Shown: piece by piece, positions 3,075 to 40,383 of the stretch
Position numbering within the stretch: the stretch's first letter is position 1
How the letters are laid out: every line of letters begins with the position of its first letter
Assembly: GCA_015075635.1 (NCBI GenBank)
Contig: JABTUA010000001.1
Span: forward strand, 1,302,001-1,366,000
DNA length: 64,000 nucleotides
Direction: 5' to 3'
DNA from: Polyangiaceae bacterium
GTDB taxonomy: Bacteria; Myxococcota_A; Polyangia; Polyangiales; Polyangiaceae
Program-made: the position numbers and the translations under genes
Notes under the pieces: model-generated
Told to the model about the DNA's origin: nothing
The model's input: only the letters and a program-made list of their open reading frames with translations
Databases searched by the model: none

Positions 3075-3420
3075 TTTCCTGCCCCAACTCGCCGCCGCTG
3101 CGCGGCGTCGGTCTTCCCCAAATTCGCGCTTCGCGCGAATGGGGAAGACGGGTCGTCCCGAGCTCGGTGCGTCTTAGCTCGTCGCTACGTGCGGTGTTCC
3201 GTAGCTGGCACGTCGTCGCACGCTGCTGCGAGCGGCCTGGTGTCCTCGGCCCGGCGCGGTGGTCGGGCTCCGCTCAACCGGCGCACGCTCTGCGCCACGC
3301 CGCTCGATCACTCGAAGCAACGGGCCGAATGTGTCGACGAATACGAAGCTGATGTGAGTTCCGGAAAATCTGGCCGCATCCGTTCCGGAAAATCTGGCAC
3401 CCCCTTGAAGGGAGCCAGAG

Positions 3421-3682
3421 ATGGAGCCAAGCGTAGCTGACGCGATGAAACGGCAGCGGCAACCGGAGGAGATGTTGCCGCTCCTCAAGAGACACGAGGT
3501 TCAGGTTCTCCGCCGTGCGGGGTTGAGCGCTGCGGACGTCGCGAAGCGGACGGGAGTGTCGCTCCGTCAGGTTCGCCGGCTCGACAAGGAGACGCCGCCG
3601 TCTGATGCGGACGATGCGCGCGAGCGGAAGGCGCGCCGGATCGGGCGGCCCTCGAAGGCCGAGCCGTTCCGCGCGTTCGCGC
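3421..3682 (+). pseudogene. istA-like transposase, N-terminal fragment
   Basis: The ATG at 3421 opens a frame whose first 85 or so residues look like the N-terminal helix-turn-helix of an IS21 IstA transposase (VLRRAGLSAADVAKRTGVS, then RIGRPSKAEPFR). After that the frame turns into low-quality Arg/Pro sequence. The DDE catalytic core is absent. The switch in coding frame near 3680 marks the internal deletion joint with the istB remnant. The fragment might still give a short DNA-binding peptide, but there is no sign that it does. Confidence 0.7.
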
Positions 3683-3815
3683 GACCCCGACCTCGCCAGG
3701 GCGATCGTCGACCGCATCCTCGAACGCGGCCGCATCGTTGTCCTCGACGGCCCCTCGGGTCGCACGCGCCACCTGCCGCACGACGAGCTCGACCCAGACG
3801 AGCACGCCGTGGCGT
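3683..3815 (+). pseudogene. istB-like ATPase, C-terminal fragment
   Basis: Read in a different frame from the istA fragment, this stretch gives DPDLARAIVDRILERG followed by GPSGRTRHL. This resembles the C-terminal end of IS21 IstB helper ATPases, where a conserved Ala-X-X-Asp-Arg-X-X-X-(His/Arg) helix is followed by a short beta segment with Ser-X-Arg. The Walker motifs and everything upstream are missing. The assignment is by pattern memory and is less certain than that of the element ends. Confidence 0.5.
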
Positions 3816-4010
3816 CACGCGGCCTTCAGGCGGCCCCCGCCGACGTGCAAGGAAGCGCCGTCCCAGTACTGCCCACCGGTGCCAGAGTTTCCGGAAAACC
3901 AGGGGCAGATTTTCCGGAACCTACAGCTGAGAGCGCCACAGGCGGCGTGTCACAGATCGTGCGCCCTGGGTCGCGAAGCCCGCCCACCACGCCGGGCCTC
4001 GGAGGAACCC

Positions 4011-4376
4011 ATGTCCGCTCGCCCCATCACTCAGCTTCGTCGCCAGCAAGTCCTCTCGCAGCGTGCCGCCGAGATGCGTGCGGCGCCCACCCGGTCGGAG
4101 GCCGCCCTCTGGCAGGCGCTGCGGGCCAAGAAGCTCGGCGTCGAGGTCCGCCGTCAGGTGGTGCTCGGGAACTACATCGCGGACTTCGTCGTGCCCTCGG
4201 CGAGGCTCGTCATCGAGGTGGACGGGGGCTACCACTGCAGGCGAGTCGCCGCCGACGCGCGGCGGGAACGGGCGCTCCGGCGCCTCGGCTACCGCGTGCT
4301 CCGGCTCGACGCACAGCTCGTGCTGGGCGCCCTGCCCGAAGCGCTCCTGCAGGTGCGGCAAGCGCTCGTCGGCTGA
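4011..4376 (+). CDS. DUF559 (Vsr-like, PD-(D/E)XK) protein, copy 1
   Basis: A 121-residue protein of the DUF559 family, small proteins related to Vsr and other PD-(D/E)XK nucleases. The start is fixed by GGAGGA five bases upstream of the ATG. Recognisable parts are the N-terminal RAAPTRSEAALWQALR helix, the beta-hairpin VRRQVVLGNYIADFVV (Asp of the nuclease core), LVIEVDGGYH (Glu-X-Asp), and the closing RALRRLGYRVLRLDAQLVL. The core residues are all present, so it may be active; the family's natural substrate is not established. The protein is identical or nearly so to copies 2 and 3. It sits in a repeat unit whose promoter-side head contains the IS21-type insertion. Confidence 0.88.
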   Translation: MSARPITQLRRQQVLSQRAAEMRAAPTRSEAALWQALRAKKLGVEVRRQVVLGNYIADFVVPSARLVIEVDGGYHCRRVAADARRERALRRLGYRVLRLDAQLVLGALPEALLQVRQALVG

Positions 4377-4470
4377 GGCCTGCGCCTCTGCCTCTGAGAC
4401 AAAGATTGCTTCTTCTTCTTCTTCTTCTTCTTCTTCGTGGCGTTCGTGGCGTCGTGGCGTTCGTGGCGCA

Positions 4471-5251
4471 TTTCCTGCCCCAACTCGCCGCCGCTGCGCG
4501 GCGTCGGTCTTCCCCAAATTCGCGCTTCGCGCGAATGGGGAAGACGGGTCGTCCCGAGCTCGGTGCGTCTTCGCTCGTCGCTACGTGCGGTGTTCCGTAG
4601 CTGGCACGTCGTCGCACGCTGCTGAGAGCGGCCTGGTGTCCTCGGCCCGGCGCGGTGGTCGGGCTCCGCTCAACCGGCGCACGCTCTGCGCCACGCCGCT
4701 CGATCACTCGAAGCAACGGGCCGAATGTGTCGACGAATACGAAGCTGAGAGCGCCACAGGCGGCGTGTCACAGATCGTGCGCCCTGGGTCGCGAAGCCCG
4801 CCCACCACGCCGGGCCTCGGAGGAACCCATGTCCGCTCGCCCCATCACTCAGCTTCGTCGCCAGCAAGTCCTCTCGCAGCGTGCCGCCGAGATGCGTGCG
4901 GCGCCCACCCGGTCGGAGGCCGCCCTCTGGCAGGCGCTGCGGGCCAAGAAGCTCGGCGTCGAGGTCCGCCGTCAGGTGGTGCTCGGGAACTACATCGCGG
5001 ACTTCGTCGTGCCCTCGGCGAGGCTCGTCATCGAGGTGGACGGGGGCTACCACTGCAGGCGAGTCGCCGCCGACGCGCGGCGGGAACGGGCGCTCCGGCG
5101 CCTCGGCTACCGCGTGCTCCGGCTCGACGCACAGCTCGTGCTGGGCGCCCTGCCCGAAGCGCTCCTGCAGGTGCGGCAAGCGCTCGTCGGCTGAGGCCTG
5201 CGCCTCTGCCTCTGAGACAAAGATTGCTTCTTCTTCTTCTTCTTCTTCTTC
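4471..5251 (+). repeat. DUF559 repeat unit 2 (uninterrupted)
   Basis: A 781-bp unit, head to (TTC)8 tract, lying directly behind unit 1 in the same orientation; the two are separated only by the CGTGGCGT-type tail at 4437-4470. The spacing from the GCTGA site to the ATG is 81 bp in all three units. Its own tail continues to about 5277. The tandem pair probably arose by unequal recombination, or by a second insertion into the first unit's tail, since both heads are preceded by the same GTGGCGTTCGTGGCGCA. Confidence 0.9.
4829..5194 (+). CDS. DUF559 (Vsr-like, PD-(D/E)XK) protein, copy 2
   Basis: A second 121-residue DUF559 protein with the same sequence as copy 1 as far as I can read. The GGAGG ribosome-binding site and the putative catalytic NYIADFVV and VIEVDGGYH segments are preserved. 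The reading frame is intact in all three copies. This suggests either recent duplication or selection on the protein; the sequence alone does not separate these. There is no partner gene (methylase or specificity subunit) next to it, so it is not an ordinary restriction system. Confidence 0.88.
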   Translation: MSARPITQLRRQQVLSQRAAEMRAAPTRSEAALWQALRAKKLGVEVRRQVVLGNYIADFVVPSARLVIEVDGGYHCRRVAADARRERALRRLGYRVLRLDAQLVLGALPEALLQVRQALVG

Positions 5252-39602: not shown

Positions 39603-40383
39603 TTTCCTGCCCCAACTCGCCGCCGCTGCGCGGCGTCGGTCTTCCCCAAATTCGCGCTTCGCGCGAATGGGGAAGACGGGTCGTCCCGAGCTCGGTGCGT
39701 CTTCGCTCGTCGCTACGTGCGGTGTTCCGTAGCTGGCACGTCGTCGCACGCTGCTGCGAGCGGCCTGGTGTCCTCGGCCCGGCGCGGTGGTCGGGCTCCG
39801 CTCAACCGGCGCACGCTCTGCGCCACGCCGCTCGATCACTCGAAGCAACGGGCCGAATGTGTCGACGAATACGAAGCTGAGAGCGCCACAGGCGGCGTGT
39901 CACAGATCGTGCGCCCTGGGTCGCGAAGCCCGCCCACCACGCCGGGCCTCGGAGGAACCCATGTCCGCTCGCCCCATCACTCAGCTTCGTCGCCAGCAAG
40001 TCCTCTCGCAGCGTGCCGCCGAGATGCGTGCGGCGCCCACCCGGTCGGAGGCCGCCCTCTGGCAGGCGCTGCGGGCCAAGAAGCTCGGCGTCGAGGTCCG
40101 CCGTCAGGTGGTGCTCGGGAACTACATCGCGGACTTCGTCGTGCCCTCGGCGAGGCTCGTCATCGAGGTGGACGGGGGCTACCACTGCAGGCGAGTCGCC
40201 GCCGACGCGCGGCGGGAACGGGCGCTCCGGCGCCTCGGCTACCGCGTGCTCCGGCTCGACGCACAGCTCGTGCTGGGCGCCCTGCCGGAAGCGCTCCTGC
40301 AGGTGCGGCAAGCGCTCGTCGGCTGAGGCCTGCGCCTCTGCCTCTGAGACAAAGATTGCTTCTTCTTCTTCTTCTTCTTCTTC
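39603..40383 (+). repeat. DUF559 repeat unit 3
   Basis: A 781-bp copy of the unit at 4471-5251, 35 kb away, with the same head, hairpin, 81-bp leader, gene and (TTC)8 tract. The tail (40384-40409) is built of TTCGTGGCG. Its left edge, unlike those of units 1 and 2, is not in a CGTGGCGT array but next to the GxxExxY gene, so this edge shows the true 5' boundary of the unit (TTTCCTGCCCC). Confidence 0.9.
39961..40326 (+). CDS. DUF559 (Vsr-like, PD-(D/E)XK) protein, copy 3
   Basis: 121 residues, the same protein as in units 1 and 2. One silent base change is seen near the end of the gene (codon CCG instead of CCC in the LGALPEALL segment). The putative catalytic Asp and Glu-X-Asp are kept. Next door on the left is a GxxExxY gene, another small PD-(D/E)XK-like protein transcribed the other way; on the right hemW converges. 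Confidence 0.88.
   Translation: MSARPITQLRRQQVLSQRAAEMRAAPTRSEAALWQALRAKKLGVEVRRQVVLGNYIADFVVPSARLVIEVDGGYHCRRVAADARRERALRRLGYRVLRLDAQLVLGALPEALLQVRQALVG

Follow-up and report, generated by a model that had tools for sequence, protein, structure and literature searches.

Elements of the IS21 family, such as IS21 and IS5376, encode the transposase IstA and the AAA+ helper IstB, with istA followed by istB. Each of their TG...CA ends carries at least two repeats at a spacing of about 23 bp, and 4-8 bp of the target, frequently 5 bp, are duplicated. A study of an IS21 transposase has reported 5-bp direct repeats and, at each end, two copies of the terminal repeat with a spacing of about 23 bp, IstA requiring both copies (PMC10122671). 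Bacterial MITEs have been described as arising from internally deleted, non-autonomous IS copies (PMC3189936; PMC10969869). They are short, have inverted ends and a target duplication, and lack a transposase, and their presence in several copies indicates that they moved after the deletion. No paper on an IS21-derived MITE was found in the literature searched, whose coverage was partial.

The window (the whole stretch of 64,000 nucleotides analysed, from a Polyangiaceae bacterium) contains a 573-bp insertion that is very probably a single-copy, non-autonomous and internally deleted derivative of an IS21-family element, of a subgroup that occurs in Polyangiaceae and their neighbours within this order. 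It shares with the IS21 family the TG...CA ends, two repeats per end at about 23-24 bp, the 5-bp duplication and the order istA then istB, the latter as fragments only (5' istA, 3' istB), whereas the IstA catalytic (DDE) domain and most of IstB, including its ATPase domain, are gone. With bacterial MITEs such as MITEPsy1 (PMC3189936) it shares its small size, the retention of both ends, the absence of a transposase and the target duplication; in contrast to them, it occurs once, gives no sign of movement after the deletion and keeps recognisable coding remnants. Internally deleted IS copies of this non-autonomous type are a known kind, and the window element is a real, well-preserved and ordinary one, which leaves the general understanding of IS21 elements unchanged.

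Ends and Target Duplication of the Insertion

The insertion occupies positions 3353-3925 and is flanked by two exact copies of GCTGA (3348-3352 and 3926-3930), which is present singly at the empty sites. The left outer terminal repeat, TGTGAGTTCCGGAAAATCTGGCC (3353-3375, plus strand), was recognised as inverted repeat I1, 87% complementary over 23 nt, and the left inner repeat (3383-3401, plus strand) through inverted repeat I2 and direct repeat D1. Repeat analysis also located the right inner repeat (3878-3896) and the right outer repeat (3903-3925, ending in ...CCTACA), both on the minus strand. Outer and inner repeats have a spacing of 24 bp at the left end and 23 bp at the right end. The element runs from TGTGAG... 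to ...CCTACA, and its outer 20 bp match between the left and right ends at 18 of the 20 positions. The probability of at least 18 matches for one fixed pair of 20-bp ends is about 1.6e-9, the GCTGA duplication not counted; this value, together with the uninterrupted site present five times, rules out a chance origin of the structure. A sequence-only reading had proposed the coordinates, the 573-bp length, the GCTGA duplication, the TG...CA termini, the 18 matches in the 20-bp ends and the inner repeat copies, all of which are borne out by the sequence and the repeat analysis. A sigma-70 scan of positions 3200-4100 gave no promoter-like site, and for this reason no effect on the DUF559 gene is claimed.

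Target Repeat and Empty Sites

The repeat unit hit by the insertion carries a DUF559 gene (PF04480, E 1.6e-26). Uninterrupted copies of this unit, each with a single GCTGA, lie inside the window in unit 2 (target site 4744-4748) and unit 3 (39876-39880), and outside it at C1:1289097-1289853 (minus strand), C1:1148691-1149417 and C1:1145992-1146423. Over the 120 bp around the target, four of these five empty sites are mutually identical and the C1:1289097 copy has a single mismatch. Joining the flanks of the insertion gives a sequence with 2 mismatches in 742 bp (99.7% identity) against unit 2, unit 3 and the C1:1289097 copy. Given the single-GCTGA empty sites and the near-identical flanks, the insertion thus arose on the lineage of one repeat copy after its separation from the others, with the proviso that gene conversion among the repeat copies could give the flanks a falsely young appearance. 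The proposal that the insertion postdates the duplication of the DUF559 unit, made earlier on the grounds that units 2 and 3 are empty, is upheld and extended by the three further uninterrupted copies. The locus documents one clean non-autonomous IS21 derivative together with its empty sites.

The DUF559 unit itself is a dispersed repeat, with window copies at 3101-4420 (interrupted), 4471-5240 and 39603-40372. Three more copies elsewhere in the genome are 91-100% identical, and many others match more weakly; above the same threshold, matches were found in both genomes of the same genus and in 0 of 36 others. Its right edge carries CTT and CGTGGCGTT repeats in variable number, and the unit looks mobile or amplified.

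Gene Remnants and IS21 Relatives in the Order

Two gene remnants, in different frames and both free of stops, are preserved between the ends. The first (3421-3681, plus strand) holds about 80 homologous codons of the istA 5' end, covering the HTH region, before it runs out of homology, and the second (3683-3925, plus strand) corresponds to the last approximately 60 residues of a relative's IstB, its frame continuing through the right terminal repeats. The istA start matches the NCBIfam IS21 transposase profile NF033546 (E 1.6e-4, profile positions 3-55) and the istB tail the IS21 helper ATPase IstB profile NF038214 (E 2.5e-3, positions 203-232 of 232), both with scores below the curated family cut-offs, as expected of fragments. 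Comparison with the nearest long relative (L057, genome G112) gave 59% identity over 79 aa for the istA remnant (E 2e-21) and 48% for the istB remnant (E 8e-15). These profiles and this comparison confirm the earlier description of the element as keeping only the 5' end of istA and the 3' end of istB, out of frame with one another. In the alignment with the reverse complement of L057, element position 315 pairs with 988 (istA) and position 327 with 2927 (istB), so that about 1.9 kb is absent relative to this relative. The junction lies approximately at 3668-3682, in a CGCGCGTTCGCG stretch; the closest candidate parents in the data reach about 73-84% DNA identity, and this over pieces, too distant for its exact position or any microhomology to be read.

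Among the 184 genomes of the order, the own genome counted, 13 carry the double left end when 3 mismatches or fewer are allowed, and a reversed-pattern control gave 0. In G071, a full-length relative of 2,474 bp (L028, 513-2986) has both genes open, with an istA of 530 aa; it possesses the double end on either side and is flanked by a 5-bp duplication of its own, CCCGC. It shares with the window element the double TTCCGGAAAATCTG ends, a homologous istA N-terminus and istB C-terminus and the 5-bp duplication, and differs in its complete reading frames, with a protein identity to the window remnants of about 48-66%. The full-length relative in G112 measures 2,438 bp and has both genes, no duplication is visible around it, and it is 73% identical in DNA to the left 226 bp of the 573-bp element. 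A contig of G002, a genome of the same genus, holds a related istA/istB copy with a right end (L037). Solo left ends of the subgroup were found at three loci (L103, L104 and L109) and a left end with the istA start at a fourth (L110). Among GTDB records, the exact double end occurs in Polyangiaceae and other Myxococcota MAGs. These copies outline an IS21 subgroup of this order with a distinctive double end.

The possibility that another type of element, merely resembling IS21, produced the insertion could draw on the weak profile scores of the remnants. However, the remnants match exactly the istA and istB ends of full relatives that share the same ends and encode the two genes in the same order, and this candidate was rejected as extremely improbable. 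The sequence-only reading had named full-length IS21 elements with these ends as the relatives to look for, and had held that the absence of any IS21 relative with them from related genomes would speak against its interpretation; IS21 relatives with the same ends occur across the order, at full length in G071 and G112.

Copy Number, Helper Search and Order of Events

The 573-bp element is present once in its own genome, where the same double ends were found nowhere else, apart from two lone 14-mers. Among 108 genomes of the family its deletion junction was detected in no other one, nothing comparable to the element was found in 379 genomes of the phylum, plasmid and phage collections gave no match, and the double end had no exact counterpart in viral contigs. 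Other 573-bp copies, which had been suggested as a sign of mobilisation after the deletion, were not found, and such mobilisation is left without support. A search by ends and by IstB family did not find an intact cognate istA/istB in the own genome, although a helper could lie in a gap of the assembly, which is 97.65% complete in 5 contigs. The IstB-family matches obtained there comprise a pair of short fragments from the C-terminal part, which end in a different C-terminus (L053 and L054), and two long open frames that align with the profile only in its middle. The two fragments (G000:C1:3425872 and 3430043) are near-identical, truncated and IstB-like, lie about 4 kb apart with similar flanks, and belong to another IS21 subgroup. 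As no IstA/IstB pair was found in its own genome, the 573-bp element is probably immobile at present. The earlier label of an IS21-type MITE-like remnant accordingly holds for the structure, which fits a MITE, and for nothing beyond that likeness, given the one copy, the missing junction copy and the lack of a cognate helper among the matches.

In the proposed course of events, an IS21 transposase placed either the element itself or the full-length parent into a single copy of the dispersed DUF559 repeat, creating the 5-bp duplication that the empty sites reveal. A deletion of about 1.9 kb, made evident by comparison with the relatives and reaching from inside istA to inside istB, eliminated the catalytic domain of IstA along with most of IstB. 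There is a slight preference for deletion after insertion over deletion before it, since a second element is then not needed. The landing of a full-length element followed by loss of its middle in place, which we consider a little better than an even chance, would take the fewest events and is consistent with the stop-free state of both remnants; decayed and truncated copies of the subgroup are common in relatives (L103, L104, L109 and L110), making decay in place an ordinary outcome, but the own genome has no other full-length copy as a source. Somewhat short of an even chance is the arrival of an already deleted element that, in the manner of MITEs, a full-length IS21 had mobilised in trans. 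The intact ends and inner repeats, the exact duplication, the related istA/istB with a right end in the same genus and a rearranged derivative of about 510 bp with both ends in another genus (G102) all agree with such an arrival, whereas the single copy, the absence of the junction from the other family genomes and the failure to find a cognate helper in the own genome argue against it; the lack of a comparable match in the phylum lends it no support.

The two repeat copies remaining at each end constitute the DNA needed by IstA, and IstA and IstB supplied in trans could in principle move the element, which would lend itself, as a minimal substrate of natural origin, to testing whether the two proteins act in trans. 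More tentatively, the element may be a trans-mobilisable, MITE-like IS21 derivative that was deleted before insertion and whose helper has since been lost; short deleted derivatives of the subgroup would then have arisen more than once in the order (the window element and the rearranged 510-bp one in G102).

The second short derivative of the subgroup (L106, 3689-4198; G102:C106:10188-10697, minus strand) consists of a left end, the istA start, a second left end, an inverted istA piece, the istB tail and a right end; it keeps both ends in a rearranged element and has no target duplication. In another genome, G182, one related left end is present in four copies (L111-L114), three of which adjoin a contig end and the fourth of which lies 82 bases from a contig start, positions to be expected of an IS present in several copies at which the assembly breaks.
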